DNA of 64,000 bases. It comes from Pholiota molesta (Eukaryota; Basidiomycota; Agaricomycetes; Agaricales; Strophariaceae). Both the position numbers and the translations under genes were made by a program. Shown one piece after another: positions 32,855 through 57,302 of this stretch (position 1 is its first letter; every line of letters begins with the position of its first letter). Where the stretch lies: NCBI GenBank assembly GCA_014925825.1, contig JACGCK010000077.1:124001-188000 (forward strand). Reading direction: 5' to 3'. The notes under the pieces were generated by a model. That model ran no database searches. It worked only from the letters and a program-made list of their open reading frames with translations, and was not told where the DNA came from.

Positions 32855-32870
32855 ATGTCTGAATCCGCTG
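32855..32870 (+). pseudogene. Orphan copy of the HET-gene first exon
   Basis: Sixteen bases encode MSESA plus one base and are followed by a GTAATT donor. This is identical to the first coding exon of the HET2 gene (38503-38518), including the CTGCA leader. No HET body follows; the sequence runs into a UBR1 fragment about 60 bases later. It looks like the remnant of a fifth unit whose HET gene was deleted. Direct use as the first exon of HET1, about 1.1 kb away, is possible but unlikely. Confidence 0.6.
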
Positions 32871-32929
32871 GTAATTTTTTGCGAGAAACGAACTGATCAT
32901 GATGCAGTACTGAGTGCTTCTCGTGGGGT

Positions 32930-33325
32930 CGTTGCAGATTTGTCTGACCTGGTCAAGCGAGCCGCGGAGCACCTCGTCGATAATCCGTCCGTCGAGCGCA
33001 TTCAGTGTCATCGAAGGACTAGCGACTCTATAAGGGCGTCAGCGAAGTCTGCGAGAGCGGGATCGTGCTTCAGGGCATGTTATCGGCGTATGGTTCGAAT
33101 GTTCTGGTCGTTACAGACTCGGGCTCTTCCTCTCGACTAGCGGGATCGACCCTCCCTCCCACCGAAGTTATCCTCGATCAGCCTCTGAGAATATGGTTAT
33201 GCTTGGTGTGATTGAACGATCTCGGTGGTTTAGCACGCTCGCGGCGAGGAAATGGTTCAACGAGGAGGGTAAAGGGAAGATGCGTAGCGAAGGCAAGGTG
33301 GAACTTGAACTTAGTCATCCTGAAA
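32930..33325 (+). pseudogene. UBR1 fragment 1 (decayed)
   Basis: Reads DLSDLVKRAAEHLVDNPS, matching UBR1 DLVKRVAERLVDDPS (about 29262-29305), then jumps to YKGVSEV and NVLVVTDSGSSSRLAGS, matching UBR1 YKGISDV and NVLVVTDSGSSSVPAGS (29547-29660), and fades after a match to the RPRGFSTLASR region. Internal deletions, frameshifts and stops rule out function. No UBR box or RING is present. Confidence 0.85.
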
Positions 33326-33394
33326 AAAGGGCTCTCGCATGGTATCACCATTTCCAAGGACCAAGTTGATTATGATCATCACACCCGGTGCATG

Positions 33395-33736: not shown

Positions 33737-34014
33737 GAACATTGATTATAGCTGGGCATGAACAATTAAATATAACTTCAGTGTACATGGGAATCTTGTG
33801 CGAATCCGTAGGAATCCGTCGATTCATTTTTGCTTGCCATCAGGGTTTATCGCAAAGCGTTCGACTCGGAATTGCGAAGCTCTTTCTCCTTCTTTCTCCC
33901 CACTCACATCAAGTTCATCGTTGCGCACTGTTGCGGATAACTGAATCCACTGGTAATTTTTTGTAGGAATCTCAGATGACCAATGCCTGATTTTCCTTTC
34001 ATTGTGAAGAGAAA

Positions 34015-36311
34015 ATGTTAGAGCATGGTAATGCGCATCTCAATTCTGCTAAAATCCATCAGGGATCGTCAGATGGTGATCCCGCTGAAAGAGGTGAGCA
34101 AAATCACTTGTTGACCTAGAGCTCATAGGTCGCTGGGCGCTCATCATGTTTATTGCATGCACGATTTAGATCCCATCGCCAACTCCCCATCGCAGATTTT
34201 GCTCGAGGCCCTGCAGAATTTTGTGATTCCACTCATACATGCCGCCGAGGGAAACAATAAGAAGGGTAAATCTGTTCACCACGACAGACACGATTTCAAT
34301 CACTTAATCATAAAATATTTTAGATATCAGCCAAGTTCATATGGGCGTCGAAGCGGGGAAGCTTCTTACCTCGCTCCAGGAATTTATATCGTCCATAATC
34401 GTACAATCACGAATTGTTCAACCACAAGGAATCGAGGTGGATTTGGAAGGTGGAACTCTTCCTGAACAACGCCACAATTGCAGTTACTGACTGTAAAACA
34501 ACTCCTACTGCTTAATGTTGACGACGTTCTAGATGATGCCAAATCTTCTGGTGCGGCCACACCCACAGATAGTCTCGCCTCCGACCTCGAACCCTCAGTG
34601 GAAGGTATGCAAATAATAGCAGAACTGTTCAGGATCTAATATTATTGCCGTCAATTGTTCAGAGACAGCTTTAAATTCTCGAATTAAACGAATGTATACA
34701 ACGATTATGGGAAGAATTCCAGAGGCGGTCCGCAAGCATGTCTTCAGCAAGATGCCTATTCGAGTGTTGCACTTCACCAACATCCCTGGAGACTCCGGCT
34801 CTAAGCTCCAAATTACGCTACTTGATAGGAATGGCGTCTGCGACCGCGTTATTAGAGAAATTCACGCCAGATCCTCGATTATACACAGGTACATCAAGGA
34901 ACTGTGCAAAGGCATCAAGGAAGACACACAAATTTTGCATGACGTTGCCATCAGAAGTATCGTACTGGAAAACACCAAATACGCCATCCTGTCTCATACC
35001 TGGCTCCGTGAATCGGACAGCGAGATCAGCTATGGCGATTGGCAGATAGGACAACATGATACACAGAAACCAGGATATCAGAAGCTTGCCAATTTTTGCA
35101 AATCTGCTTGGATAGACCACGGACTCTCTTTCGGTTGGATGGACACTGTTTGCATTAACAAGGACAGCAGCTCCGAGCTCGACGAATCCATCCGCTCAAT
35201 GTATAAGTGGTACCAGGACTCTGACGTCTGCATCTCCTACCTGGCGGGGACTGTCACCCTGGGTGATATTCATCGGGATGCTTGGTTCACTCGCGGATGG
35301 ACATTCCAAGAACTGCTCGCTCCACGTCGCATGTCCTTTTATAACAAGGACTGGAAGAAGTTCGTACGGTACTCCGATCCTGGCAACAAGTACAATCCAT
35401 ATATTCTAAAGCAAATCTACAAAGCGACGACCATTACTGAAGATGAACTACGCTTCCCCACCAAGTTATCTATATCGCGCAAGATGCAGCTAGCAGCGAA
35501 GCGCAATGTGATGCGCGAAGAGGATATCGCATATTCTCTGATGGGCATTTGCAATGTCAGTATTTCGATAGCATATGGCGAGGGTGCCAGGCGCGCGTTC
35601 TTCCGCCTCATGACGGAGGTCTTGAATACATCGAGCCAAGTTGTCGATTTCTTCAACTGTGCTCAGATGGATGCACGCTCTATTATTCCATCGGGACCGT
35701 CGGCATACCTTCAATGCTCCGAGGCTATAATGAGCACGTCACCGTGGCACAGCTCACCTATAGAGCCGTTGCTTCTTACTCATGTCGGCCTCCGGACGCC
35801 AATCCTTTTGATGCCCTCTTTGCGAGAGAACGACAATTGCCTTGAAAACAAACCCATTGGTAATTATCATGCCAAGCTTCACTTACCTGCTTTGGAATCT
35901 ATCAATGTCGGAGTCTACCATGTATTGGACAAAGGCATCAAGAAAAGCACTGCTGGTAAGTGGCAAGACTTGAGCTGGGCTCGCAATGGACTCACTGATT
36001 ACGATCTTGACTCTACAGAAATGAGGTGGTCATTTGGAATATTGAATTTCGGAGGAGATACATCCACTATCCATTATCGGGATCGCTGCCTTGCATTATG
36101 TTTCAAGGTGAACCGCCTGGGCGGTGTTGGCCAAGTGGATTGGAGCTCAACTTCCGGTTTGCAATTCGTAAGGATTTGCACGAAGGAGCCTATCGTTTTC
36201 CATCTCATGAAGCACGGGGCATCCACTTTAGGAGCAAGTAATGTTCCTTATCCAATCAAGCGAAGCGAGCTGGCAATGCATGGGATAACTTTGACCACCA
36301 TGTATCTGTAG
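34015..36311 (+). CDS. HET-domain protein, copy 1 (HET1)
   Basis: Exons 34015-34093, 34170-34265, 34324-34449, 34533-34604, 34663-35955 and 36019-36311 join to 653 codons. The original short first exon is lost (ATGTCTGAA has become ATAACTGAA near 33940), so I start at the ATG in exon 2. The HET domain is in the long exon: KYAILSHTWLRESDSE, GLSFGWMDTVCINKDSSSEL, YQDSDVCISYLAG, WFTRGWTFQELLAPRRM and FYNKDWKKF, then MREEDIAYSLMGI. HET domains trigger growth arrest or cell death when genetically unlike hyphae fuse. The N-terminus carries two similar helices (LLEALQNFVIPLI and LLTSLQEFISSII). The C-terminal exon forms a separate conserved block ending TLTTMYL. No STAND NTPase or repeat domain is attached. 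The frame is intact apart from the lost first exon. Confidence 0.87.
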
Positions 36312-36796
36312 GGGCTCGAACACGTAGCGTAAAACAGGTTAAATGCAATTCTATATTCGACACAGGCGAATATATATCCGTTTTTGAAGCTAATAGGGCT
36401 TGATTCGCACATCCATTGATGCCATGAACCATGAACCCAAGCATCGAAGCCCCACGCAGTTCCTCCAAAGTCTAGCCAGAAGATAAGTAACACGCTCTAT
36501 ACCCGCACCCGCCCAGCTTTTGAATCAATGTTCAAAAAGGCATGAACTATGTTCGACGAACGATAAAAGAGAATGTCGATGGAGGAGAGTGACGACAACG
36601 CAGGTCTAAACAGAGGGACGGAACCCGCAAGGACGAGGTGTTGAAGAAAGCGGGACGACAAAGACGAACGAGGGCAGAGCACGACACAACACGGAAACGA
36701 GAGGTCTTCAAACGGCTCATAAAAAAGCATCTACGCTGCGCGGCAGCATAGGGTCATAACAAAACACTCTTGAGCCCAACGCCCAAAGCTCAGATC
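36312..36796. other. Shared 3' flank of the HET1 unit
   Basis: No gene. The first bases after the stop (GGGGCTCGA, then a block with TATATTCGAC) recur after the HET3 and HET4 stops. The 36.5-36.8 kb part resembles 48.8-49.05 kb and 55.4-55.62 kb, which lie next to the 3' end of the PH-CRIB-PH copies, so this is probably their former 3' UTR. Confidence 0.5.
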
Positions 36797-37110
36797 TCAG
36801 AGCCCAGTCTGAATCCGCCGCACGCAGGCACGGATGCCCCCACAGTCAGGGGCACGCTCTTCCGTCGAGACCTCTTCTCCTCGCTCGCAGGCGCGCCACG
36901 CGCGCACCTCCGCCTCCTTCGCAAACGAAACGTACAGCTGCGCCAATTTTTGCGTGAATTCAAGCAGGTGGGTTGGTCCCCTTGCTCTCAGGCGTGATGC
37001 GCGTGTTAGGGTAGATATAAGTATCGTTTTCCAAGGAGGCTATCTGCAAGCGCGTGCAGGGAGATCTAGGCGTGGTCGGCGATGGAGGCAAGGAAAATGA
37101 GAGACAGACA
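36797..37110 (-). pseudogene. PH-CRIB-PH gene fragment, unit 1 (last exon only)
   Basis: Minus-strand sequence matches the last exon of the intact gene at 55690-55998: traces of the LTRITP...LLEF strand, SFAKEA-like and SEEKRSRRKS segments and a degraded PVGAPVPA-type end. Several frameshifts are needed to follow the match and the CRIB-encoding exon is absent. It is a relic. Confidence 0.7.
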
Positions 37111-37142
37111 CAGACGGCCGCGGAATGTGGTTTGGCCGAAGT

Positions 37143-37690
37143 GCTGACATAATATCCCATTCATCAACGACTTCAACTTGACGCAAACTCGACGTTAACC
37201 TTGTTCTGGTCGTTCGACGCCTCTACGCCTCTATGCTAAGCTGGCTTGAAGCTGACAATCAGGTTTCCAAGGGTTTCATCGCTTTGGAAGGCGTACACCG
37301 CATACGTTACAGGAAAATGGCTGGATTCAGAACTCTCAGCATCGGTCTCGTCAACGACTCTCGGGACACCGCCTAGCGCATCTATTAGCTTCCATGGCCA
37401 ACCTCCACGCACCTCCAGACTCAGCTGCGAATCCCCCGCTGTCATGGCCACTATTGCACACATGAAACCCACCACGAAGCCCACTCTCATGGGCCAGACA
37501 ACTATCTCAGGTCTCAGGGTGGCACCCAAGTTTGTCCTCGCGGAGCGCGCCTTCATACTACAACTCCACGACACATGCAAGGAGACGCTGAAGGATTCTA
37601 CATGTGCTCAAATGACACGCTTAATACGCAGACGTGCTAGCGAAGGTGAGCTTTTAACATATTGGCATACGATTTGAGCCTGGCTCGGCG
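37143..37690. repeat. Module X, copy 1
   Basis: A segment of unknown identity that recurs at 42465-42850 and 50050-50560, always between a PH-CRIB-PH relic and a UBR1 fragment. This copy is the most open: on the plus strand 37246-37677 is free of stops for 143 codons and contains APKFVLAERAFILQLHD, which matches APNFVLAERAIILQLPD in copy 3. On the minus strand ALGGVPRVVDETDAE loosely matches the other copies. I cannot decide the coding strand or name the gene. Confidence 0.5.
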
Positions 37691-37744
37691 CCTGTTCTAA
37701 TATTCCATGATTTCTATTGACATTTTCTTCCCCCAGTCACCGCC

Positions 37745-38225
37745 ATTCTTCTTCTGGGTGGCCGAACAACGTTCTCTGTGCGTTCCTTCCACGAGGTCGA
37801 GTTTGGCGGGGCATGGTCTCATCCGTTCAAATTTGACTTATCGGAGACCTAGCCGACCTCGTCAAACGACCGAAGGAGCGCTTCGTCGGCAGTCCGTCCT
37901 TCCCGCGCATGCTGCGCAGAATCGCAAACTTCCAGCCGCCGGAAGGCCCTACGGAGCGGGCCATGGTTGAACGACATCGGTGATTCAGCGCGAACCGTTT
38001 CTTGGACACGAGTGCGCTGCAAAGCTCGACGCTGAAGGACCCGCTGATGAATGGGATCCGCGGGCTGACCGCAAGGCCCGGCATAGGATCCGATAGACTC
38101 GCCGCATGCCCTGCTAGGTTGGAAAGGCACGAAGAAAGGAAGTAGGCAGCGAAGAAGAGGCAAGACACTATCATGGAGCGAAAGGAGGCAACAACGAGCG
38201 AGCTTTGCGAGTATGTTTGCTTGGT
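37745..38225 (+). pseudogene. UBR1 fragment 2 (decayed mosaic)
   Basis: Three separate UBR1 blocks are fused: FHEVEFGGAW...FDLSE (parent about 28555-28615), DLVKRPKERFVGSPSFPRML with NFQPPEGPTE (about 29262-29365), and a block with KLDAE, GIRGLTARPGIGSDRLAA and SELCEYVC-like sequence (about 29875-30070). Stops and frameshifts interrupt every block. The mosaic shows large internal deletions relative to UBR1. Confidence 0.87.
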
Positions 38226-38502: not shown

Positions 38503-40894
38503 ATGTCTGAATCCGCTGGTAAGCTCCTCACGAAACTTATATGAGCAAGGTCTGGTTCTCATTTCTTTCCAAGAGAGAACCTCAACGTTTGGTGATGCGC
38601 TTCCGCATGCTGGAACCCGTCAGGGACCATTGGGTGACGATCTGAATTCCACTAGAAGAGGCGAGCAAAACCACTTGTTGGCCTAGAGGCCATCGAGCGC
38701 TGGGCGCTCATACATGTGTACTGCGCGCGTTGTAGATCCAACCACAAACACCCCATCGCAAACCTTGCTCGAGGCCCTGCAGAACTTTGTCACCCCTCTC
38801 ATACATACAACCGGCGGGGAAAAAATGAAGAGTAAGCCTCTTCGCTGCAACAAACACAATTTTATTCACTTAATAACGAATTAGATATGGGCCAAGCTCA
38901 TTCGATGGGTCCTGAGGCGGTGAAGCTTCTTACCGCGCTCCAGGAATTCATATCATCTATGATTGTACAACCACGATTCGGTCAACCACAAGCAATCGAG
39001 GTGGAATTGGAAGGTAGATTTCTTCCTGAAAAATACCGCAATTACAGTTATGACTATAACGCCTACTACTTAACTTTGACAACGTTCTAGATGATGCCAA
39101 ATCTCCTTGCGCGGCGACACCCACAGATAGTATCGCCTCCGACCTCGAACCCTCAGTGGAAGGTATGCAAATTATAGCAGAATCGCTCAGGGTCTAATAT
39201 CATTGCCGTCGAATTTTAGAGATAGCTTTGAATTCCCGAATCGAACAAAGGTATCCAACAATTATGGAAAGAATTCCAGAGGCGGTCCGCGAGCACGTCT
39301 TCAGCAAGATGCCTATTCGAGTGCTGCACTTCACCAACGCCCCTGGAGACCCTGGCACGAAGCTCCAAATCACCCTACTTGATAGGAACGATGTCTGCGA
39401 CCGCGTCATAAAAGTTATTCACGCCAAATCCTCCATTGTAAAAAGACAGATCAAGAAAATTGTCACAGATCGGTATAATCAATATAAACAATTTGGCGAC
39501 TCGGAGCATTTCCCTATCATCGAGAAATTCATCACACAAGAAAACACCAAATATGCCATCCTGTCTCATACGTGGCTCCGTGGATCAGACGGCGAAATCA
39601 CCTACGGCGATTGGCAGATAGGACAGTTCGATGCTCAGAAACCAGTATATCAAAAACTCGCCAATATTTGTAGATCTGCTTGGAAGGACCACGGACTTTC
39701 GTTCGGTTGGATGGACACTGTTTGCATTAACAAGGACAGCAGCTCCGAGCTCGACGAATCCATCCGCTCAATGTATAAGTGGTACCAGGATTCCGACGTC
39801 TGCATCTCCTACCTGGCGGGGACCGTCGCCCTCGATGATATTCATCGTGATCCTTGGTTCACTCGTGGATGGACATTCCAAGAACTGCTCGCTCCGGAGC
39901 GCATGGCATTCTATAACAAGGACTGGAAGCCATTCGTACCATACACCCTTCGTGGCGACAAATTCGATACAGATATTCTAAATCAAATCTACAAAGCAAC
40001 GACGATTACTGAAGATGAACTACGTGGCTCCAACGATTTACCTATTTCGCGCAAGATGCAGCTGGCGGCGAAGCGGAATGTGATGCGTGAAGAAGACATC
40101 GCGTACTCTCTGATGGGCGTTTGCAATGTTAGTATTTCAATAGCATATGGCGAAGGTGCCGAGCGGGCGTTCTTCCGCCTTATGACGGAGGTCTTGAATA
40201 CTTCGAGCGAAGTTGTCGATATCTTTAATTGTGCTCAGAAGGGTCGTCCGGAACGTCCCTCCATTATTCCATCGGGACCATCGGCATATCTTCAATGCTC
40301 CGAGGTTATTATGGGGATCTCGCACAACCCACCTATAGAGCCATTGCTTCTTACCCATGTAGGACTGCGGACGCCCATCCTTCTGATGCCCTCGTTGCAA
40401 AAGGACGACCCTTGTCTTAAAAACGACCCCATTGGTGACTACTATGCCACGCTCCGGTTGCCGGGATCACCTTACACTTTTGGCCCGGGGAGCCCCTCTT
40501 ATCTATTGGACAAAGGTATTATGAAAAGCATCACTCGTAAGTGGCAAAATTTGAGCTGGGCTCTCGATGGCAGAAGCGTCAATGTCAATCATTTGCTAAC
40601 TCCCACTTTACAGGGCACAGAAGGACATTTGGAATATTGAATTTCGGCGGAGACACGACTACTGTCCATGTTCAAGATCTCTGCCTTGCAGTATGTTTTC
40701 GGATGGACCACTACTACGGCCAAGTGGAATGGGGCTCGACTTCCAGTCTGTCCAAGATCGATCGGATGGTAACAGACGAGCCTATTGTCTTCCGTCTCAA
40801 GAAGCAGGGGTCGCCGAGGGGTCAAGCTGTTTATTCAATCAAGCGAAACGACCTGGCAAAGCACGGGATGACTTTAGAAACCATGTATTTGTAG
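38503..40894 (+). CDS. HET-domain protein, copy 2 (HET2)
   Basis: The most complete copy: exons 38503-38518, 38574-38660, 38736-38831, 38885-39013, 39091-39162, 39220-40536 and 40614-40894 join to 666 codons. It starts MSESA. HET landmarks are KYAILSHTWLRGSDGEITYG, GLSFGWMDTVCINKDSSSEL, CISYLAGTVALDD, WFTRGWTFQELLAPERM and MREEDIAYSLMGVCNV; the end is TLETMYL. N-terminal helices read LLEALQNFVTPLI and LLTALQEFISSMI. The donor after exon 2 is GCGAGC where the other copies have GTGAGC. If that GC donor fails, translation would read into the intron, so expression of the full-length form may be reduced. By family the role is non-self recognition and cell death on hyphal fusion. Confidence 0.87.
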
Positions 40895-40984: not shown

Positions 40985-42070
40985 TGATGACACCGGCGCG
41001 CTCAGCGACAGGACCGCCCCATTCGCGAACGACACGTACAGCGCCTCTGTAAATCTCGACTGCGGCTGGGAGGCGGCGGCTTAGGGGTGAGCCGTGTACG
41101 AAGTCGAAGGGTGACGGGCCGGCGCCGCCCAGCCAGCTGCGGGCACGACGGTAGATGTCGTGCAGACGTCGTCTTGCCCATCGTATAGCTCGGAGTCTTC
41201 GGCGAACAAGAGACGGAGGCGGCGTTCCTTGTCGGTCTGGGATGTACGTTAATGATGGCAAGAGACTGTCGAACTCGAGCCGCCGTGGCTTCCAGGATGC
41301 CTATTAAGGCTGACCCAGCGCATCTTAGCAAGCCAGCGCGAAAATAGACCGTTCCAAGCAACGATATACCGGCCCTCGAAGGCAGGAAGGGATGGCCAGA
41401 TGGAAACCGTGTCTTGCTGCCCATTGAGCGAGATTATATCAGACGTCGACCGCGAACGCGGCGCCGCCTGCACTATCGGTATCGAAGCCTCGGGCGACGT
41501 GGAAGTTGCAGCTGCGGGCTGCGACCCGCCCCCGACGATCTCGGCATATATAGGGAGTATACTGGCGTCTCCGAAATTTCTGAAGACGTCCGCGCCGACG
41601 TGGGCTTTGGTACGAAGCCGAAGGGGGACGAGCTGGCGCCGCCGAGCTGCGGGGCGCGGCTGTAGATGTCGTCTTGCCAGTCGTAGAGCTCGGAGTCGGC
41701 GGCGAACGAGAGATGGAGGCAACGTTCGTTGTCGGTAGCGTCGGGTGCGGCGACGCGGATGGAGAGTCGTGCGGTCTGGGGCGGCGACGAAGGTGAGGGG
41801 GATGCGAGTATGTTTACTTGACGAGAGCTATGAGTGCAAGCAAGTGTGAATGAGAATGTAGATGTCGTGGAAGAGGTTGTGGGACGTACCTTGATGATGA
41901 TGGTAAGAGACTCGGCGTCGGTCTGGCTTCCAGGATGCGCTGCGGAAAGCACTGCGCTCGCGGACGTCGGCGGGCCCATCTTCGGTGTGAACTTGGACAA
42001 CTCGGAGGGGAGTGGACACGTCAAGGACGCTGTGGGCTTGTAGCACATGCTCTCGTGGCGGCCATTCGCA
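40985..42070 (-). pseudogene. PH-CRIB-PH gene relics, unit 2 (two nested pieces)
   Basis: The larger piece (about 42070-41280) keeps the start region (YKPTASLTCPLP), the first PH part (HTRIPLTFVAA; ELYDWQDDIYSRAPQLGGA), the CRIB region with a frameshift inside it (SSPFGFV in one frame, KAHVGADVFRNFGDASILP in another) and the entry of the second PH (GRYIVAWNGLFSRWLAKMRW). The smaller piece (about 41280-40985) fuses another ELYD...QDD and SPFDFVHG segment directly to the end of the second PH (ALYVSFANGA). Frameshifts destroy both. Confidence 0.8.
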
Positions 42071-42114
42071 GAGGATTGTGGTGGAAGAGAAAGTAGGATA
42101 GAAAAGAGAGGTAC

Positions 42115-42350
42115 TCAGGGACCCTCGCCTAGGAGCTTTCACTCGTATATAGAGAGCATACTGGCATTACTGAGATTACCTGCGACACCCGCACCGTCGT
42201 GGGCTTTGTGTACGAAGCTCAAAGGGGCGAACTGGCACTGCCTAGCTGCGAGGCAAGGCTATAGAGTTCATCTTGCCAGCATAGAGCTCAGAGTATAAAT
42301 CGGCGACAAAAAATTGATGGAGGCGGCACTCCGGCGTCGACTCGGAGAGC
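42115..42350 (-). pseudogene. Third PH-CRIB-PH relic in unit 2
   Basis: A short, strongly diverged piece on the minus strand aligns with the intact gene from the ELYD...QD segment through the CRIB region to the ILPIYAE strand (for example ALYIRV opposite SLYTR-like sequence and GFVYEAQR opposite GFVHKAHV). It has several stops. A similar piece is at 49690-49900, so this small duplication predates the split of units 2 and 3. Confidence 0.55.
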
Positions 42351-42464: not shown

Positions 42465-42850
42465 GACGTAATATGTCAAGCCAAGTTTGCTTTCTGCTTT
42501 CTCCGTGCTCGTTCCTGCTCGTTCGCCGCAACGCCAAGTCGACACTCAGGCCCGCAAGCTCAAGGTCGTCATCGCTTGTTAGGCGCATGCCGCTTATGCT
42601 ACAAGACAATGATATCTCAGTATCGGTCTCGACTCTTCGGACACCGCCTGGCGCGTCGCTCACCTCCCACTGCCGCTACGAAACACCTCAATGCACCTAC
42701 AAACCCGTCGGAGCGTTCCTTGTTATTACAGTCGCGCCTACATAACACAGCGCCTCGACATATACAAGGAGCTGAAGGTGTTCTATCACGATGCCGATGA
42801 TGCGCTTCATACGTAGAAGGAATACCAGCAGACATGTTATAGAAGGTAAG
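42465..42850. repeat. Module X, copy 2
   Basis: Shares with copy 3 the blocks CGACACTCAGGCCC, TATGCTACAAGACAATG and ATACAAGGAGCTGAAGGTGT. On the plus strand the last part reads LDIYKELKVFYHDADDALHT then a stop. On the minus strand SLSCSISGMRLTSDDDLELA resembles a segment in copy 3. Truncated relative to copy 1. Confidence 0.45.
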
Positions 42851-43004
42851 CCTTCAATATTCAGACGATTCGAGCTCAAGCCTGGGCTCGTCTGCTCTAA
42901 TACTTCGTAACTTCTACTGACACTTTCTCCATTTTCTTCCCCCAGCCGACCTCATTCATCTTCTAGGCGCTGATGTAGACGAACGCGGGGCTCAGTTGCG
43001 CCAT

Positions 43005-44550: not shown

Positions 44551-44552
44551 TA

Positions 44553-45692: not shown

Positions 45693-48013
45693 ATGTTTGG
45701 CGATGCGCCTCCGCCTGATGGTGGTACCCATCAGCATCAGGGATCATCGAGTGACGATTCCGCTGGAAGAGGTGAGCGAGACCATCTGCTGGCCTAGCGT
45801 CCGTGGATCGCTGGGACCTCATACCTGTCTACCGTGTGCAATGTAGATCCTACCACAAACACCCCATCGCAAATTTTGCTCGAGGCCCTGCAGAATTTCG
45901 TCATCCCCCTCATACATACGGCCGAAGGGAAAAATAAGAAGGGTAACTCTCTTCGCTGTAATAAACACAATTTCAATCGCTTGATTATGATATATTAGAT
46001 GTCGGCCAATTCCATTCGATGGGTCCTGAGGCGGGGAAGCTTCTTGTCGCGCTCCAGGAGTTTATATCATCAATGATCGCACAATCACAAGTCGGTCAAA
46101 CGCAGAGCATCGAGGTGGACTTGGGCGGTAAACTTGTTCCTCAGCAATACGACGGATTACAGTTATTGATTTTGAAACAGATCCTGATGTCGACAGCGTT
46201 TCATCGAACGATGCTATGGTCAAATCTCCCGGCGTAGAAACAGAGAGCAAACTCTATGACCCCGGGCCCTCGCAAGGTATGCAAATCATAACAGAACCTC
46301 TGATCTCAACATCTAATAGCATTGTTATCGCCTGTTGGAGGATAGCTTTGGTACCCCGACAAACAGATTACCAACGTGTTATGGGAAGACTTCAGGAGGC
46401 AGTTCGTCGGCACGTCTTTAGCAAGATGCCTATTCGGCTATTACACTTCAGCAACACGCCTCGAGAAACCGGCACCAAGCTAAGCCTACAAATAACACTA
46501 CTTGAGAGGAACGATGTCTGTGGCCGAATCATGCAAGAAATTCTAGCCAGTTTCTCGGAGAGAATATTCAGAGAGAGGATGGTAAAGGCTAGAGAGACTC
46601 GTGGGCCTGGATCTGGATTGGGACTATCTCTTGAGGACCGCATCATCAAGGACATCATACAGGAAAACACCAAATATGCCATCCTATCTCACACATGGCT
46701 TCGTGGATCGGACAGGGAAGTTACTTATAGCGCTTGGCGGCTACGAGAGTTCGATGCTCAGCAGCCAGGGTATCAAAAACTCATCAATTTTTGCAGATCT
46801 GCCTGGAAAGACCATGGACTTTCTTTCGGTTGGATGGACACTGTTTGCATTGACAAAGACAGCAGCTCCGAGCTCGACGAATCCATCCGCTCGATGTATA
46901 AGTGGTACAAAAACTCCCACATCTGCATTTCCTACCTGGCGGGGACTGTCGCCCTCGGTGATGCTCATCGTGATCCTTGGTTCGCTCGTGGATGGACATT
47001 TCAAGAACTGCTCGCTCCAGAATGCATGTCATTCTATAACAAGGACTGGCAGAAGTTCGTAACGTACACCAGTGATGGCGACAAGCGCAATCTAGCTATT
47101 ATAGATCAAATCTTCAAAGCAACAACGATTACAGGTGACGAGCTCCGACGTGCCTCGCTACTACCTATTTCACGCAAGATGCAGCTGGCAGCGAAGCGCA
47201 ATGTAATGCGCGAAGAAGATATCGCATATTCTCTGATGGGGGTTTGCGGTGTCAGCATCTCGATAGCATATGGTGAAGGTGCCGAGCGGGCATTCTTCCG
47301 CCTTATGACGGAGGTCTTAAATACTTCGAGAAAAGTAGTTGATATCTTCAATTGTGCTCAGCCGCTATGGCGTACTAGTATTATTCCATCGGGACCATCG
47401 GCATATCTTCAATGCTCCGAGGATATTATGATGATGCCGCACATGCAACCTATAGAGCCATTGCTTCTTACTCATGTAGGACTCCGGATGCCAATTCTTT
47501 TGATGCCCTCATTGCAAGAGAACTCTTGTGTTGAGCATGAGCCCATTGGCGACTACTATGCCACGATTTGCTGGTACAAGGATCGCAAAACATCTTTCAC
47601 GGGCAACGGTATTTTTACCTATCATCTATTGCACAAAGGCATCGCACAAAGCACCTCAGGTAAGTGGCAAGACTTGATCTGGACTCTCAATGGCAGAATC
47701 ATCATTTTCTAATTCCAACTTCACAGAATACAAGTGGATATTTGGAATATTGAATTTCGGAGGTGATACAACCACTATCGATGTTCGGGGTCTCTGCCTT
47801 TCAGTATGTTTTCGCGTGAAACGCGCGACCCAAGTGGAATGGGGCTCAACTTCCAGGTCATCTGCAATCTATCGGGATAACACAGACAAGCCTATCGTCT
47901 TCCATCTCATGAACAGGAGGACATCAACTTCAGGGGATGGTAACACTGTTTATTCAATCGACCGAAGCGACCTGGCAAAGCACGGGATGACTTTAGTGAC
48001 CATGTATTTGTAG
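45693..48013 (+). CDS. HET-domain protein, copy 3 (HET3)
   Basis: Exons 45693-45771, 45847-45942, 45999-46127, 46181-46276, 46346-47659 and 47727-48013 join to 667 codons. The usual first exon has lost its ATG (ACGTTTGGATCC near 45612), so the in-frame ATG in exon 2 is used. HET landmarks: KYAILSHTWLRGSDREVTYS, GLSFGWMDTVCIDKDSSSEL, YKNSHICISYLAG, WFARGWTFQELLAPECM and MREEDIAYSLMGVCGV; it ends TLVTMYL. Relative to copies 1-2 it carries a longer spacer exon (DPDVDSVSSNDAMVKSPG) and an insertion after the N-degenerate LLERNDVCGR segment (SLEDRIIKDIIQENTKYA region), so copies 3 and 4 form one subgroup. Reading frame intact. Confidence 0.87.
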
Positions 48014-49079
48014 GGGCTCGACACAGCGTGTAATGAAGTCAATCACAATTTTATATTCGACGCGGATGTAATCCATATCCATTTTGAAGTTATTCAGGCT
48101 TGTTTCACATATTTCCTCAGAAATGACCCGTCAGAACCTGAATTCACCGCTGTGGATGGTAACAAATGCAAGACAAAGCGCCTAAATATACGCTGTCACC
48201 ACGAACAATAGATGGCAAGCATCGAATCCCCTGACCGATTTCTCCAACGTCCGAGCCAAAAGATTAGCTTCATGCACATGCGCGGCCCCGACTCAGAAAA
48301 GATGATCTACAACCCATATCCTGCGCATCGCAAGGAAGATTCAGTCCAAGAGAGTTCGAACACAAGGATTGAACAAAAAATGCAAATCTAGATGCAAAAT
48401 CCAACAAAGATACGGGTATATCATATACAACCAGCCGTCATGCGCACAACCCGCAAGCCGCACATGGCGTAGGGTGATAACATACGAAGTAAAATACAGG
48501 GGGTGGAGGGGTGGCAGGTAACTTCATGACGATGATCGGCGAACGACGCGGATGGCGGGGAAAATGTAGGTACATAGCGGAGGTGCATACAGAGTGAGAG
48601 GGGGGGTGCGGAGATGGGGGTCAACAGAGACAGAGGGAGAGAGCGGACACACAACATGATGGGATGCTAGCGTAGATATGTAAATAGGCAAAATAGAAAG
48701 GATGGAGGGCAGACCAACGATGGCGACACGAAGACGCAGACAGGCCCAGCCCAGCTGGACTAGCCACTGCGGCGGCCCCCAGCGCGCCTTAGCGTGAAAA
48801 GGTGCGTCGTGACATGGATGTCAGGCGAAGACGGATGGACATGTGTACGATGGATGAACGATCCGACGAAAGAGGATGTTGACGATGGAGGGAAATGCGG
48901 ACGGAGGAGCATAACGGGGAGATGGGACAGGATAGGATGTACAAAATGCGGCATGACAGAGACGAACGACGGCACAACAAGACCACAGCACGGAAACGGG
49001 CTCATAAAAAAGCATCTACGCAGCGCGGTAGCATAGGGTCATCACAAAACGCTCCGGGCCAACGCCCAGAGCCCCAGCC
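48014..49079. other. Shared 3' flank of the HET3 unit
   Basis: Non-coding stretch closely similar to the flank after HET4 (54538-55690): both contain the block GCAAATCTAGATGCAAAATCC, ATACGGGTATATCATATACAACC, and GGGGGTGGAGGGGTGGCAGG. Minus-strand frames of 60-80 codons occur but are broken differently in the two copies, so I do not call them genes. It probably represents intergenic DNA plus the 3' UTR of the minus-strand PH-CRIB-PH gene. Confidence 0.55.
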
Positions 49080-49640
49080 GGTCTGCATCCCCTACGCAGG
49101 CACAGGCGCCCGCAGGCAGCGGCCCGCTCGCCGACTCCCCCTCCGCGCCCTCTTCTCCTCGCTCTTCGCCGCCGCCACTGCTGACGGCGGCGGCGCGCTC
49201 AGCGCATCGCGCCACGCACGCAGGTCCGCGTCCTTCGCGAACGACACATGCAGCACCTCCGGTGATCGTGACTGCTCCTTTTGGGCCGATTGTGGTTTGA
49301 ATTCGAGTAGGAGGGTGTTCGGTCGGGCGTGAGGCGCGTTAGGGTGGATATAGTAATCGTTTTGAGAGGCTGAGGTCCACATAGAGGAGTTTGATGGTGA
49401 GTACGCAGTTACGATGATAGGATGCGGAAATGATAGGAGGTGATGATTGAATTTAAAGTGAAAAAAAATGGGAATGGCATTGCGTTCACAGACGTCGGCG
49501 GCCTCACTACGGATGACCTTGGGTGGAGCCTTGGTCGACCTGGAGTCTTAGAGGGGGCGCGACGTCAAGGACGCTGTGGGCTTGTACGCCATGATCTCGT
49601 GGCGCAAATGTGCAGAAGATTGTAGCGGAAGCGAAGGAAG
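49080..49640 (-). pseudogene. PH-CRIB-PH relic, unit 3 (internal exon deleted)
   Basis: The last exon is well preserved (49382-49092): NTLLLEFKPQ, SPEVLHVSFAKDADLRAWRD, EEKRARRGSRR and the end LRAPVPA. Upstream (49640-49490) only the first exon region (YKPTASLTS; SEAADVCE) remains. The long middle exon with the first PH end and the CRIB is missing, and the first exon carries a stop. A hybrid protein is therefore not expected. Confidence 0.72.
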
Positions 49641-49689
49641 AACGAATATGACAGAGAGGAGAGCGATGGGGCCAGTACTCAGGACTCAG

Positions 49690-49900
49690 GCCTCAGGGAC
49701 CTTCGCCTACGAGCTTTGCGTATACAGAGTGTACTGGCATCACGGAAATTCCCTGCGGCACCCGCACCGTCTTGGGCTTTGGGTACGAAGCCAAAATGCG
49801 GCGAACTGGCACTACCTAGCTACGAGGCGAGCCTATAGAGTCCATCTTGGCCAGCATAGAGTTCAGAGTCTGGACTCTGAATCAACGACAAAGGATGGAT
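49690..49900 (-). pseudogene. Second PH-CRIB-PH relic in unit 3
   Basis: A diverged piece equivalent to 42115-42350 in unit 2, covering the ELYD...QD to ILPIYAE region of the intact gene. The two pieces share the block CTCAGGGACC(C/T)TCGCCTA(C/G)GAGCTTT and lie in the same relative position. Stops and frameshifts present. Confidence 0.5.
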
Positions 49901-50049
49901 GGAGGCGGCACTCCGGGTGTGCGGGGAGGAGTAGGTGCGTTCGATGGCGGCAACGGAAGCGAGGAAGATGGGAGCGCGTCGCGCGACGCGTTTTTGGTCG
50001 AGAAGGGCTGGTGGTGAGTGAAGATGAGAGAGACGGACTGGGCAGAGGT

Positions 50050-50560
50050 GCTGACGTAATATTTACCTCACCCCGTGCTTGCAATGTTCGCCGCTACGCC
50101 AACTTCCAAGTCGACACACAGGCCACCAAGGCCGTCGTCGCTTGGTAGGCGCACACCACCTATGCTACAGGACACAATGACTCTCAATACCGGTCTCGAC
50201 TTCAAGACACTGCTTGGCGCATCTCTCACCTCCCACTGCCGCTGCTAAGCACCTCAACGCACCTACTACCTACGCACTCATCGGAATATTCCTCGTTATT
50301 ATGGTAGCGACTACACACTTCAAGCTTCAAGGCCAACCGCGAAGCGCATTCTCTTGGCGAAGACAACTGCCTGCGGGCGGCACCCAACTTTGTCCTCGCT
50401 GAGCGCGCCATCATACTACAGCTCCCCGACATATCGAAGGAGTTGCTAAAGGTGTTCTATGCGGATGCCAATGATGCGCTCAAAACATAGAAATTCCCCA
50501 GCAGACATGCTAGCGAGTAAGCCTTCAGCTTCAATATTCAGACGGTTCGAGCTCAAGCAT
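50050..50560. repeat. Module X, copy 3
   Basis: Contains the plus-strand segment APNFVLAERAIILQLPDISK (50382 onward), followed by ELLKVFYADANDALKT and a stop, and upstream blocks shared with copies 1 and 2. On the minus strand VSCSIGGVRLPSDDGLGGLC matches copy 2. It ends with a donor-like GTAAGCCTTCAG that is also found after copy 2, and then joins UBR1 fragment 4. Confidence 0.45.
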
Positions 50561-50654
50561 GGGCTCGTCGGCTGTTCTCATATTCCGTGACTTCTACTGA
50601 CACTTTCTTCCCCAGGGGCACTGATGTAAACGAACGCGGAGCTCAGTGGCGCCA

Positions 50655-52050
50655 TCACCGCAGTGTTGCAACATGCTTGTAGAGGACCGCCTCGACCGAA
50701 TAAAGCTTTCCGTGCGGTCCTTCTACTAGGTCGAGATGGTCTCATCCGTTCGAATTCGACATATTGGAGGCCTTATCAGCTTTTGCCGCTCGCTGGCCTG
50801 GCTCCTCGCCGAGCTGTTGAAGCGTGCACATTCATCGAGCGGGGACGTGTTGACGGTTGGGACCACAGGTATGTAGATTTCCTCTCCAATAAAAACGAAT
50901 AGGATCCGTATATTCATTTAATTTGTTCATTTGACAGTGCTCGCCGTGATAGTCCAAATTGGAACCAGACTCTCGGTTCGTTATATCTTCACCGTCCGTT
51001 CTCGACTCCTCAGCCTTCTGAACGACTTTCCTGGCAAACGAGCTGGTCGTGTCGATACTCCTGGATTTTTTTTCGTTCCGAGGTAAATTCCATCTCCAAA
51101 AAATACGATCCGTATATTTATCTCGTTTAGTACTCTCATGAAAGCCCAAATCCGAACTAGACTCGGGTTCGCAATGCCTTAGCCATTCGTGGACGACTCT
51201 TCCATTACCGGAGCTACATGCTCTTGCGAGCCTTGCTACGACCAATATCTATTCACTTCCCAAATCGCTTCGGCCATATTCTCCACCCACCTCGTCATTT
51301 CCGCTGTTCTCGACCGCGTTCAGCCTTCCGGATGACTTTTCGGGCTTATATTTGCATTCGTAACTACACAGGGCCCTACGAATTTAGGAAGCATGGACGT
51401 GGCGTTATTCTACACCTCCAGCACGATTTCCAGCGAGAACGCGGACGCAAGCAAGCATACACCCATGCATCCATTTATCCGGAGAGAAATTGCACACACA
51501 CACACGCCCGCGCTGGCGACGGGCATTTGCAGCTCCTTCGAACCCTGCCAGACGCGTGGCGGAGCATTCCGTCGACAATCCATCCTTCGAGCGCGCGCTG
51601 CCAACTTCCAAACTCCCAGCCGCCAGAAGGCCCCACGGGGCAGGATTCCACGAATTCAAGCATACGACGGGGCCAAGCCGCTCTTCCACATATACTCGCA
51701 ACAACCGGGAGGGCGCGGAAATAGTGCTGCGGGAAAGGATTCAGAGGAGGGCAGGGAAGATGGAGTGGGAGGTCGTACTGCTCCCAGGTCATCGGATACC
51801 ACCTAGGGGCCGCATCAGGGCGTCGGCGAGATCGCGATTGAGACCGTGTTCTTCGCCACATCGAACACTGGGCGCAACGAGCGCCGGCTGCACGTGGTCG
51901 TGCTCGGTGGTTGGACGACTGTGGGGGCTCAGCGCACTCGTGTCCAGAAAACGGTTCAATGGGCAAGGAATAAGAAAACACTCCTGGAGGTTCTGGGCAC
52001 TTGGAAAGCACAAGAAATGCGCGAGGTTGTACGAGGCGTCGTGACTTGAT
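50655..52050 (+). pseudogene. UBR1 fragment 4 (decayed)
   Basis: Parallels fragment 3: VEDRLDRIKLSVRSF at 50675, LAWLLAELLKR, the VLAVIVQIGTR block after an intron-like gap, DNPSFERALPTSKLP, EGAEIVLRERIQRRAGKMEW, WEVVLLPGHR, and a final KTLLEVLGTWK near 52000. Frameshifts and stops throughout. Fragments 3 and 4 share deletions and substitutions not seen in fragment 2, so they descend from one already decayed copy. Confidence 0.87.
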
Positions 52051-52203: not shown

Positions 52204-54537
52204 ATGCCTAAATCCCCTAGTAAGCCCTCTTGAAACTTACACGAACATTACATGACTCTCCTTTCTTCTAAAGAGAAAGCCTCAGCGCTTGGCGATGCGC
52301 TTCCGCATGCTGGAACCCATCCGGGACCATCGAGTGACGATTCCACTAAAGCAGGTGAGCAAGACCATCTGCTGGCCTAGCGCCCATGGATCGCTGGGCA
52401 TTCATACATGTGTACCGTGCGCAATGTAGATCCAACAACAAACACCCCATCGCAAATTTTGCTCGAGGCCTTGCAAAATTTCGTCATTCCTCTCATCCAT
52501 ACGGCCGAAGGGAAAAATAAGAAGGGTGACTCTCTTCGCTGCAACAATGCAATCATAATCACTCAATAATGTATTATAGATGTCGGCCAAGTTCATTCGA
52601 TGGGTCCCGAGGCGGGGAAGCTTCTTGCCGCGCTCCAGGAGTTTATACTATCATCGATGATCGTACAATCACAAGTCGGTCAAACGCAGAGCATCGAGGT
52701 GGACTTGGACGGTAAACCTCTTCCTCAGCGATACCACGAATTGTAGTTATTGATTCTAAAACAGATCGTGATGTTGAGTGTTTCATCAAACGATGCTATG
52801 GTCAAATCTCCCGGCGTAGCAACAGAGAGCAAACTCTATGACACTGGGCTCTCGGAAGGTATGCAAATCATTATAGAACCTCTGAATCTCAACATCTGAC
52901 CATATTTTTATTGCTTGTTGGAGGATAGCTTTGATTCCCCGACAAACAGATTACCAATATTGTATGGGTAGACTTCAAGAGGCGGTCCGTGAGCGCGTCT
53001 TTAGCAAGATGCCTATTCGGCTATTACACTTCAGCGACACTCCTCGAGAAACCGGCACCAAGCTACAAATAACACTAGTTGAGAGGAACGATGTCTGTGG
53101 CCGAATAATACAAGAAATTCAAGCCAGTTTTTCGGAGAGAATATTCAATGAGAGGGTGAAGAAGTTGGGATTCATTAACCGCGTCATCGCTGAGATTGTA
53201 TACGAAAACACCAAATATGCCATCCTGTCTCACACCTGGCTTCGTGGCTCTGAAAGCGAAGTTACTTATGGCGCTTGGCAGCTACGACGGTTCGATACTC
53301 AGCGGCCGGGATATCGAAAACTCGCCAATTTTTGCACATCTGCCTGGAAAGACCACGGACTCTCTTTTGGTTGGATGGACACTGTTTGCATTGACAAGGA
53401 CAGCAGCTCTGAGCTCGACGAATCCATCCGCTCAATGTATAAGTGGTACGAGAACTCCGCCGTCTGTATCACCTATCTGGCGGAGACCGACACTGTCGAT
53501 AAAATTCATTCCGATCCTTGGTTCACTCATGGATGGACATTCCAAGAACTGCTCGCCCCAGATCACATGGCATTCTATAACAAGGACTGGAAGAAGTTCG
53601 TACCATACATCGATCCTGGCGACAAGTACAATGCAGATATTCTGGGTCAAATCTTCAAAGCAACGACTATTACTCCTAATGAAATACGCACCTCTAGGTA
53701 TTTACCTTTTTCGCGCAAGATGCAGCTGGCAGCAAAGCGCAATGTAATGCGTGAAGAAGATATCGCATATTCTTCAATGGGCATCTGCAATGTCAGCATC
53801 TCAATAGCGTATGGTGAAGGTGCCAAGCGGGCGTTCTTCCGCCTTATGACGGAGATCTTAAATACTTCGAGCAAGGTAGCTGATATCTTCAATTGCGCTC
53901 AGAGGGGATGGTCTATTATTCCATCGGGACCATCTGCATATCTTCAATGCTCCAAGGATATCATGACGATGTTGCACAGGCCACCTATAGAGCCATTGCT
54001 TCTTACCCATGTAGGCCTACGGATGCCAATCCTTTTGATGCCCTCGTTGCGAGAGAATGATCCTCATTTTAAGCATGAGCCCATTGGCGACTACTATGCC
54101 AAGTTTGAGTTCGAGCATCGTAGCGGTTCCACTCTCTATCATCTATTGGACAAAGGCTTCCAGAGAAGCACCTCACGTAAGTGGCAAAACTCAAGCTAGA
54201 CTCTCAAGTCTCAACAGTAGAAACATCATTTGCTAATTCTGACTTCACAGAATACAAGTGGACATTTGGAATATTGAATTTCGGAGGTGATACAACCACT
54301 ATCCATGTCTGGCATCTCTGCGTTGCAATATGTTTTGAGGTGAACCGCCAGAACCAAGTGGAATGGGGCTCAACTTCCCATTTGTCTAAGATCCATCGGA
54401 TTGCTACCGACAAGCCCATCGTCTTCCACCTCAGGAAGCAGGGGACATCAACTTTAGAAAAAGGTCAAACTGTTTATTCAATTGAGCGAAGCGACCTGGC
54501 AAAGCATGGGATGACTTTAGAGACCATGTATTTGTAG
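52204..54537 (+). CDS. HET-domain protein, copy 4 (HET4), N-terminal frameshift
   Basis: Exons 52204-52219, 52274-52354, 52430-52525, 52580-52711, 52765-52858, 52929-54176 and 54251-54537. It starts MPKSP. HET landmarks: KYAILSHTWLRGSESEVTYG, GLSFGWMDTVCIDKDSSSEL, WFTHGWTFQELLAPDHM and MREEDIAYSSMGICNV; the end is TLETMYL. The spacer exon 52765-52858 is 94 bases against 96 in HET3; a 2-base net loss near 52777 shifts the frame. All neighbouring introns are phase 1, so skipping this exon would restore an intact 620-codon frame. Otherwise translation could start at MGRLQEAVRERVFSKM (52963) just before the HET domain. The gene is either young-damaged or uses one of those routes. Confidence 0.82.
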
Positions 54538-55689
54538 GGGCTCGACACAGCGTGTAATGAAGTCAATCACAATTCTATATTCGACGCGGATGTAATCCAT
54601 ATCCATTTTGAAGTTATTCAGCTTGATTCACCGTGATATGCCTCCTCAGAAATGACCCATCAAAGCCTGAATTCACCACCATGGATGGCGACAAATGCAA
54701 AGTGAAGCACCCTGGAAACACGCTGTTACCACAAACACTAAATCGCAAGCATCACAATTCCAAGTAAGATTCACCCCAAGAGAGTTCGAACACATGGATT
54801 GCACAAAAAAAATATGCAAATCTAGATGCAAAATCCAACAAAGATACGGGTATATCATATACAACCAACCACCGTGGCCGTGGCCACAGCACGCAAGCCA
54901 AGCCACGCACGACGCACGGTGGTAACATACGAAGTAAAATACAGGGGGTGGAGGGGTGGCAGGTAAAAGTCTTGATGACGACGACGGGCGAACGACGATG
55001 TGGATGCGGAGGAGAAGGTAGGTACACAGGTACATGCGGGCAGGTACATACGTATTCATGTTTAGACAGCGGACGACGGAGTGAGAGGGGATGGGGGGGA
55101 CAACAGAGACAGAGGGAGAGAGCGGACACACAACATGATGGGATGCTAGCGTAGATATGTAAATAGGCAATATAGAAAAGGTCATAGAGAGGGGGGGCGA
55201 CACGAAGATGCAGACAGGGCCAGCCCAGCTGGACTAGCCACCGCCGACCCGCAGCCTGCCGCAGCGCGAAAAAGTGCTTCGTGACATGGAAGGCAAAACG
55301 GATGCACATGTGTCGATAGACGAACGATGGACAACGGACGAGCGATGTCCGATGGATGACGATGGTTGGGTGATGTACGATAAACAACGATGAAAGTGAA
55401 TATCGGCGGAGGAGATCGTCGATAGAGGAGAATGTCGATGGAGGAGCATGACGATGGACAAAAGGCGGCAACGTGGGTCTTGACGGAGAAACGGGACGAG
55501 ACAGGACGAGGTTCAAAGATATGGCATGGCGAAGACGAATGGCAGAGCACAACACGGGCATGAGATCTTCAGGTGGCTCATAAAAAAAGGGCATCTACGC
55601 AGCGCGGCAGCATAGGGTCATAACAAAACACTCCGAGCCCCAAAGCCCAGACCCGGTCGGCGCACACGCGCCCGTCCTCCCCTGAGCCC
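54538..55689. other. Shared 3' flank of the HET4 unit
   Basis: Non-coding stretch paralogous to 48014-49079. A 280-codon minus-strand frame (55594-54752) spans most of it, but its counterparts in units 1 and 3 are broken and it is low in complexity (Ser/Pro/His/Arg). I read it as the 3' UTR and downstream DNA of the PH-CRIB-PH gene. Confidence 0.5.
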
Positions 55690-57302
55690 TCACGCAGGCA
55701 CAGGCGCGCCCACAGGCAACGGCCCGCTCTTCCGCCGACTCCCCCTCCGCGCCCTCTTCTCCTCGCTCCGCGCCCTTTTCTCCTCGCTCGGGGTCGGCGC
55801 GCTCAGCGCATCGCGCCACGCGCGCAGCTCCGCGTCCTTGGCGAACGACACGTACAGCACCTCCGACTGCCGCGGGTGCGGCTGCGCGGCGGGGGTGGCT
55901 TTGGGGGTGAACTCGAGCAGGAGAGTGGTCGTCCGCTTGGGGTCGGGCGTGATGCGCGTGAGGGTGGGGAGGGGGATCGTTTTTGAGGGAGGTGAGGTCT
56001 GTGGAGGGAATTGATGGTGAGTAAAGAGTTACGGGAATAGATTGTGGACATGATAGATGGTTGATTGAATGCAAAGCGAAGAAGGTGGCAGGGATTATGA
56101 TAGCGGCGAGAATAGCACGAGTGTGGATCAGCTCAGCTGCACATAATGACCCTCGGTTCCATCCATATCTACAGGTAACGAAAATGCTGATTGATGGATG
56201 AGAGGAATGCAGCAGATGTATCTCATATGCACCCCAACCACAATTCCCCAGCGATGAAAAAAATAGAACCATGGAATAGCGGTAAGAATAGCACGAGTGT
56301 GCATCAGCTCAGCTGCTCGAAATGACTCCGGGTTTCATCCATATCCACAAGACAAGAAAAACTCTGATTGATGAATGGATGAATGGCAAACATATCTCAT
56401 GTGCACCCCAAGCACAAATCCACAGCAACAAAGAAGGAAAAAATAGAACAAAATTACCCACCTTGTCAGCACCGCGATGGATAACGAGCACCTGCCCATT
56501 CAGGCTGACCCAGCGCATCTTAGCAAGCCAGCGCGAAAACACCCCGCTCTGGGCCACGAGATACCTGCCCTCGAGCGCAGGCAGCGCCGAGCCCGGCGGC
56601 GACGGTGTCTTGCTCACATTCAGCGAGATAACCCCCGACGTCGGCCGCGACCGCGGCGCCTGCACGATCAGCGTCGACGCCTTCGGGGCCGACGACCCCG
56701 CCGCCGCGGACGACGACCCGCCCCCGACGATCTCCGCGTATATAGGGAGGATGCTGGCGTCCCCGAAGTTCCCGGCGACGTCCGCGCCGACGTGCGCCTT
56801 GTGCACGAAGCCGAAGGGCGACGAGCTGGCGCCGCCGAGCTGCGGGGCGCGGCTGTAGATGTCGTCTTGCCAGTCGTAGAGCTCGGAGTCGGCGGCGAAG
56901 GAGAGGTGGAGGCGGCGCTCCTTGTCGGTGCCTCCGGGTGCGGCGACGCGGATGGAGAGGGCATGTGGGGAGAGGTCGGTGCGGTCGATGGCGGCGACGG
57001 AGGTAAGAGGAATGCGAGTACGTCTGCTAGATGATGGCTAGTAGGGAGTGGGTGCAAATAAGTGTGAGTGTGAATGTAAATGTGATGGAAGGGAGTGCGA
57101 GACGTACGTTGATGATGGCGAGAGCCTCGGCATCGAGCTCGAGCCGCCGTGGCTTCCAAGATGCGCCGCGAAAAGCACTGCGCTCGCGGATGTCGGCGGG
57201 CCCGCTGCGAACGATTTTGAGAGGCATCTTGGACGCCTTGGCGGGGAGGGGGCGCGTCAAGGACGCTGTGGGCTTGTAATCCATGCTGTCGTGGCGGGAC
57301 AT
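55690..57302 (-). CDS. PH-CRIB-PH protein, probable Cdc42/Rac effector without kinase
   Basis: Three exons (57302-57108, 57037-56462, 55998-55690) join in phase 0 to 359 residues starting MSRHDSMDYKPTASL. A PH-like region spans about residues 25-130 (RSAFRGASWKPRRLEL; TRIPLTSVAAIDR; LHLSFAADSELYDWQDDIY). A textbook CRIB motif follows near 131-145, SSPFGFVHKAHVG, fitting S-x-P-x2-F-x-H-x2-H-V-G. A second PH domain starts at GRYLVAQSGVFSRWLAKMRW, continues across the last intron (TIPLPTLTRITPD; TTTLLLEF; VLYVSFAKDAELRAWRDAL) and ends with a basic tail and PVGAPVPA. PH-CRIB is the N-terminal layout of fungal Cla4/PAK kinases, but here no kinase follows: translation stops. It may bind GTP-loaded Cdc42/Rac and membranes as an adaptor. 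This is the only intact copy; at least five relics lie in the array. Confidence 0.82.

Follow-up and report, generated by a model that had tools for sequence, protein, structure and literature searches.

We analyzed a stretch of 64,000 nucleotides of the Pholiota molesta genome (hereafter the window; positions 124001-188000 of contig JACGCK010000077.1, here C601), taken from an assembly of 65.6 Mb in 625 contigs. It carries an array of four direct tandem units, each composed of a slice of the UBR1 gene, a HET-domain gene, a remnant copied from a PH-CRIB-PH gene (PC) and a further piece, module X, located between an intact UBR1 gene and an intact PC gene. The assembly holds both haplotypes, at least at the array locus, and the contig allelic to C601 (C28) has the same arrangement. 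The main finding is that the HET core of each window copy is under purifying selection, while the passengers duplicated along with it gathered stops and frameshifts. From left to right, an open UBR1 gene and a stray copy of HET exon 1 are followed by four slice-HET-PC units separated by module X, the last of which ends in the open PC gene on the minus strand:

26331-32102, plus strand: UBR1 gene, left neighbor, open on the window haplotype (last exon 27708-32102; start and first exons approximate)
32849-32874, plus strand: stray duplicate of HET exon 1, ATG at 32855 (exact 26-mer match)
32926-33307, plus strand: decayed UBR1 slice U0 (4 frameshifts in the alignment)
33937-36311, plus strand: HET1, canonical start ATA, core and C-terminus intact (spliced model; PF06985, 35.4 bits)
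36561-37094, minus strand: PC remnant 1 with part of the 3' flank (2 stops, 4 frameshifts)
37468-37758, plus strand: module X, copy 1 (sequence match)
37762-38221, plus strand: UBR1 slice U1 (1 stop, 6 frameshifts)
38503-40894, plus strand: HET2, ATG at the start, intact core, model with one GC donor (PF06985, 42.7 bits)
41014-42332, minus strand: PC remnant 2 (6 frameshifts)
42480-43016, plus strand: module X, copy 2 (sequence match)
43021-44523, plus strand: UBR1 slice U2 (2 stops, 14 frameshifts)
45611-48013, plus strand: HET3, ACG at the canonical start (both haplotypes), intact core (PF06985, 38.1 bits)
48331-49984, minus strand: PC remnant 3 with 3' flank (3 stops, 6 frameshifts)
50086-50680, plus strand: module X, copy 3 (sequence match)
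50682-52035, plus strand: UBR1 slice U3 (2 stops, 20 frameshifts)
52204-54537, plus strand: HET4, start ATG present, core intact, model frameshift near 52776 on C601 and none on C28 (PF06985, 39.2 bits)
55690-57302, minus strand: PC gene (359 aa), right neighbor, open on both haplotypes (exons 57302-57108, 57037-56462 and 55998-55690)

A BLAST comparison of the window with itself returned the HET unit four times (33.9-36.4, 38.4-41.0, 45.5-48.2 and 52.0-54.8 kb), the six pairs being 72.6-81.9% identical with E-values printed as 0.0. Each HET gene is preceded by a UBR1 piece (32.93-33.31, 37.76-38.22, 43.02-44.52 and 50.68-52.04 kb), and all four pieces derive from within the slice 28505-30074 of intact UBR1. 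PC pieces follow HET1-3, the intact PC gene follows HET4, and module X sits between PC and the next UBR1 slice. This is the four-unit order between intact UBR1 and PC that had been proposed from the sequence in an earlier reading of the window (the original prediction), and both the self-comparison and the two haplotypes bear it out. That reading also had the array begin with a UBR1 fragment at 32855; the array does lie next to intact UBR1, but position 32855 is the ATG of the stray HET exon 1.

C28 is collinear with the window piece by piece at about 87-99% identity, through all four units. Unit 3 (UBR1 slice, HET3 and PC remnant, window 42.5-50 kb) is about 99% identical between the haplotypes and most neighboring windows are 91-97% identical, so that a recent exchange of the whole unit between haplotypes is possible. 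At window position 2979, in the left flank, C28 is longer by about 7.2 kb. An assembly artefact or collapsed repeat might be suspected from the repetitive nature of the array and from the transposon genes near contig ends (copia-type genes on C601, RT_RNaseH/chromodomain retroelement genes on C28 and a Transposase_21 gene on C15, a contig with further units), but the same four units are found on two haplotype contigs with allele-level differences. Moreover, proteins from a JGI source, which we take to be environmental, pair with each of the four genes (P0001 with HET1 at 98% identity, P0003 with HET2, P0006 with HET3 and P0005 with HET4). Given the agreement of the two contigs we rejected this explanation, whose probability we regard as negligible. 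With units of shared make-up, living and dead members and differences between haplotypes, the array shows the hallmarks of a tandem birth-and-death cluster.

To compare the fates of the duplicated parts, we built 16 HET models by spliced alignment guided by a P. molesta gene model and defined the HET core as the segment from AVR/VVR to TMYL (480-542 codons). Neither stops nor frameshifts interrupt the core in 14 of the 16 copies, including all eight window-array copies of the two haplotypes. In contrast, all ten UBR1 slices scored are lesioned, with 4-20 frameshifts each, as are all twelve other PC copies scored, with 3-13 lesions each. The decay of the UBR1 copies and of most PC copies had been predicted, and the sole intact PC copy of the window is the right-hand neighbor itself. 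Ratios of nonsynonymous to synonymous divergence (dN/dS) for the 28 pairs formed by eight HET copies ranged from 0.31 to 0.59 in the core, and a DNA-only alignment gave a mean of 0.40 (range 0.29-0.55). The UBR1 slices, aligned as DNA only (eight slices, 28 pairs), had ratios of 0.8-1.12 in 18 of the 28 pairs, within a range of 0.46-1.43. In the HET core pairs, 177 of 217 indels were multiples of three. By region, seven paralogue pairs picked from the 28 showed dN/dS values of 0.14-0.36 in the HET domain and 0.50-1.30 in the last ~140 residues. The original prediction had named a neutral dN/dS among the HET genes as the outcome that would speak against its central claim, repeated segmental duplication with selection to retain HET; the HET values are not neutral, and their contrast to the slices upholds this claim.

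The HET genes might also be intact without selection on each copy, if the array were neutral and continual conversion from a few functional copies restored them. The near-identity of the unit 3 block between haplotypes would fit such conversion, as would the trees of three HET segments, which differ in detail. However, Jukes-Cantor distances between units 3 and 4 are 0.17 for the UBR1 slice, 0.23 for module X and 0.34 for PC with its flank, compared to a dS of 0.30 for the HET core; HET is no less diverged than the passengers, and its frames are therefore neither simply refreshed by conversion nor those of younger copies. Over the 28 pairs, HET dS (0.23-0.71) is not below the divergence of passengers and upstream sequence (0.17-0.43), and dN/dS is below 0.6 in every pair. 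We consider this explanation, which was already disfavored, quite unlikely.

All four window HET frames match PF06985 (35.4-42.7 bits, cut-off 22.5), the best stretch covering positions 1-89 or 1-91 of the 146 profile positions. The assembly has at least 112 exon-level matches to this family, a lower bound from the 150 of 180 candidates scored. The long frames reported for the HET genes do read through, but the genes have about seven exons and the frames include the last intron of 63-77 nt. In HET1, this intron has 63 nt and reads through; in HET2-4, it has 77, 67 and 74 nt and changes the 3' frame, which led us to reject broken C-termini. Likewise, the stop met in the 5' frames of all four genes lies inside an intron of the models. 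A conserved 26-bp element, considered as a regulatory or mobile motif, proved to be HET exon 1 with its splice donor; the exact 26-mer also occurs in HET2, in the C15 HET genes (three places) and at C224:86464. In the last intron of the HET2 allele, C28 has an extra stretch of ~537 bases (C28:89319-89856) with complementary ends, ACACGGCGGACA and TGTCCGCCGTGT, which is absent from the window allele and appears to be an insertion resembling a miniature inverted-repeat transposable element.

The upstream exons encode a paired motif, LLxALQxFIxPLI and, ~34 residues later, LLxALQxFISSxI. Among 121 sequences, 55 have at least 100 residues before the core; 49 of these contain one or more occurrences of the pattern, which was written from the same HET family on which it was scored, and 29 contain two, against shuffle expectations of 1.41 and 0, respectively. 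Searches of four proteins found no Pfam family over this region. NACHT, NB-ARC and WD40 had no match in the four HET frames (E 0.1) or in P0014, P0018, P0025 and P0040 (E 1), and the proteins tested thus do not appear to be NLR-type HET receptors of the HET-E/D/R kind. The HET profile had no match to PDB sequences at E 10, and PADLOC had none in two proteins. P0018 agrees with our spliced model of a C224 HET gene.

The original prediction covered 24 kb of the window; the unit also recurs outside the window at two further sites, an inverted array and C224:268-276 kb. The tail of C28 contains further units in inverted orientation, of which C28:119.6-127.4 kb is allelic to C15:5.9-11.8 kb (87-96% identity), and the window array and the array on C15 and C224 therefore lie on one chromosome, mutually inverted; their spacing is ~13 kb on C28. 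C15 has four units, two of which are also present on C224, and about 180 kb away C224 has another two X-UBR1-HET units, in which nothing of PC is left but its 3' flank (268-276 kb). Beside the shared unit, the C28 HET copy A6 is unlike its C15 neighbor B3, and the haplotypes therefore differ in HET gene content at the inverted array. Another tandem HET cluster, at C615:343-369 kb (L021-L023), has four copies with a unit of 5-6 kb and parts that are 95-97% identical; blastn found no UBR1 or PC-gene match in it, so that the passengers are locus-specific.

Intact UBR1 matches the Pfam families PRT6_C (332 bits), UBR1-like_wing (127), zf-UBR (54) and ClpS (43), and its last-exon alleles differ by a dN of 0.0066 and a dS of 0.071. 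The C28 allele has a 1-base gap opposite window position 29377, amid clustered substitutions; sequencing error aside, this gap would shift the frame, and none of eight aligned UBR1 slices matches the variant. All slices in the loci fetched map to 28445-30074 of the intact gene. Because none reaches further 3', the slice was probably already cut when multiplication of the unit began. The PC gene matches the PH family in two stretches (32 bits) and PBD at 18.7 bits, under the cut-off of 21.3; its second intron contains a tandem duplication of ~170 bp (window 56100-56449). Module X resembles a stretch of exon and intron that has decayed. It has 16 matches in the genome, including the query, and all 16 are in HET-unit regions; a genome search found no intact parent. 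In the right flank, window 61899-62136 is a tandem duplication of ~120 bp with 77% identity. No Rfam family matched at the gathering threshold within 26-64 kb.

Taken together, we consider it likely that the HET-domain genes at this locus form a birth-and-death cluster that grew from one composite segment, in which HET is kept and the passengers decay, and which possibly serves as a sensor repertoire. The segment consists of module X, an internal UBR1 slice of ~1.6 kb, a HET gene with about seven exons and a convergent PC gene, and the copies observed are four direct ones between UBR1 and PC, inverted ones ~13 kb downstream and two further ones on C224. The array probably grew where it lies, through unequal exchange among its units. 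On the basis of published HET biology, its products would be effectors of cell death related to TIR (the relationship to TIR is reported in PMC4986451, and sufficiency of the HET domain for cell death in fungi in PMC10197012). Their triggers would be set by the fast-evolving C-terminal part and possibly by the N-terminal paired motif, and the set of copies would serve as a repertoire of sensors that detect non-self or damage inside the cell, with allorecognition as only one possible use. A domain sufficient for killing would also suit selfish or addictive genes that persist, in the manner of spore killers, by killing non-carriers; as both haplotypes carry the array, we think this very improbable.

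Several observations weigh against selective retention of HET. The five lowest slice pairs (dN/dS 0.46-0.70) all involve one slice, UB3_15, and in the protein-guided alignment the UBR1-slice pairs also come out near 0.5. We attribute the latter values to alignment bias, and this control was rejected in favor of the DNA-only alignment. Two of the 16 HET copies, A5 and A6 in the tail of C28, are broken, their models being interrupted or truncated, and the later comparisons used the other copies. Within the window array, the predicted survival of four HET genes holds for the cores and their PF06985 matches but not for all 5' ends. Both haplotypes have ATA in HET1 and ACG in HET3 at the position of the canonical start, although Met codons follow in frame in exon 2; in addition, HET4 on C601 and HET2 on C28 could be modeled only with a frameshift among the 5' exons. 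Retention is hence not absolute. Between the HET1 alleles, the 5' exons have 16 nonsynonymous and 4 synonymous changes compared to 10 and 29 in the core (Fisher p 9e-5) and look relaxed; the HET2 alleles tend in this direction as well (p 7e-4). In the window array, the N-terminal module thus seems to be in the course of release while the core is kept. Between paralogues, dN/dS in the 5' exons is 0.23-0.80 (28 pairs), and the module was therefore constrained for much of the history of the family.

The original prediction went further and saw in the array an allorecognition locus under diversifying selection. At a classical heterokaryon-incompatibility locus, divergent alleles would be kept by balancing and diversifying selection and a mismatch would kill fused cells; HET domains are reported in several proven incompatibility genes (PMC10197012, PMC4986451). 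Site models at first point in this direction: a home-made implementation of M1a/M2a gave a 2dlnL (twice the log-likelihood difference) of 84 over 469 ungapped codon columns, with 8% of sites at a dN/dS of 4.2, and fits to separate segments with separate trees were also significant on all ungapped columns (10.6, 27.5 and 47.4). However, for the 269 columns at least nine codons from any gap, the difference between M2a and M1a was 0 and that between M7 and M8 0.37, and the segment-wise fits away from gaps were not significant (0, 0.005 and 1.6). The hypervariable stretches coincide with indels, which leaves two readings, genuine hypervariability or a misleading alignment at these places. Diversifying selection on the HET copies is thus not a robust result.

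Allele comparisons all rest on the one pair of haplotypes in this genome. Allele dN/dS is 0.09, 0.13, 0.73 and 0.43 for HET1-4, the last two values being based on just 7 (HET3) and 18 (HET4) coding changes; the HET1 and HET2 alleles are under purifying selection. The HET2 allele dS (0.177) is ~2.5 times that of the UBR1 last exon, which would fit an incompatibility locus, as would the different HET content of the haplotypes at the inverted array. Yet the alignable array is no more divergent between the haplotypes than the left flank: in 500-bp windows with at least 350 aligned bases, identity is 90.7-99.8% in the array and 87.4-99.6% at 20-33 kb, although alignments under 86% were dropped and poorly alignable indel stretches omitted, so that these values understate the structural difference. 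This one haplotype pair is compatible with balancing selection but gives it no support, and the fact that the assembly of one genome holds both haplotypes also weighs against this explanation. For established incompatibility systems, long-held allele classes are reported (PMC2988816; PMC11138114), and in Podospora anserina only 5 of 125 HET genes are reported to act in allorecognition (PMC10197012). We consider a classical incompatibility locus improbable; with ordinary alleles and a site signal confined to the neighborhood of gaps, diversifying selection is not shown, and an allorecognition role of the array is unproven.

A more specific form of the birth-and-death reading, which we put forward only tentatively and judge less probable than not, is that the array is a repertoire of sensors specific to the species, in which paralogues diversify more than alleles do, with a constant HET effector, a C-terminus evolving near or above neutrality between copies and an N-terminal module being shed. 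Between alleles, C-terminal dN/dS is 0.11 for both HET1 and HET2 (7 and 11 changes) and 0.53 for HET4. If true, the array would be a basidiomycete counterpart of the expanding immune-receptor clusters of plants and animals, and not a polymorphic incompatibility locus.

In a tree of 131 sequences, the array copies, their C15 and C224 sisters and the JGI-source relatives form a clade of 23 tips (support 0.956), which leaves out the named Pholiota genes in the tree. Outside the tree, close DNA matches to HET1 occur at C224:26 kb, C15:124 kb and C224:271 kb and on C619, C489 and C12. P0001, P0002 and P0003 are each listed on a contig of 14,858 bases. Since P0002 is not an allele of HET3 and its listed contig size is the same as for the partners of HET1 and HET2, natural haplotypes probably differ in their HET copy make-up.

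The array provides an unusually clean internal control, in that several copies of one segment maintain one gene while two others are dismantled. We regard this as direct evidence that HET copies are worth keeping in a basidiomycete; the parts of the literature available to us contained no function-tested basidiomycete HET gene, and titles and abstracts yielded none on Pholiota HET genes or heterokaryon incompatibility. Two haplotypes, together with copies of graded divergence, are material to separate selection between alleles, as expected for allorecognition, from selection between paralogues, as in immune-sensor models.

The array illustrates a known route by which HET-type gene families grow. 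The closest parallel among basidiomycetes is Ganoderma lucidum, for which 96 HET-domain genes, several HET-rich scaffolds and expansion by tandem duplication are reported (PMC3342255). Tandem HET expansion in a mushroom is hence already published, and the Pholiota array is a new, unusually well-resolved example: in Ganoderma, tandem duplication was suggested from scaffold counts, whereas here the segment, its passengers, their decay and the contrast in selection are resolved on two haplotypes. As reported for the HET genes of Podospora and Neurospora, which are generally lineage-specific, clustered and variable and in which HET is often the sole identifiable domain (PMC10197012, PMC10684091), the Pholiota genes form a clustered group of their own. 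Those fungi, however, are ascomycetes with some cases of proven incompatibility, whereas the Pholiota proteins, known from sequence, combine a paired LLxALQxFI motif at the N-terminus with a C-terminal part that evolves fast. The array further resembles het-c/pin-c of Neurospora crassa (PMC2988816) in that duplication placed a HET-domain gene beside another gene, but that locus is reported to have balanced haplotypes with trans-species polymorphism, whereas the Pholiota array shows ordinary allele divergence in one haplotype pair.

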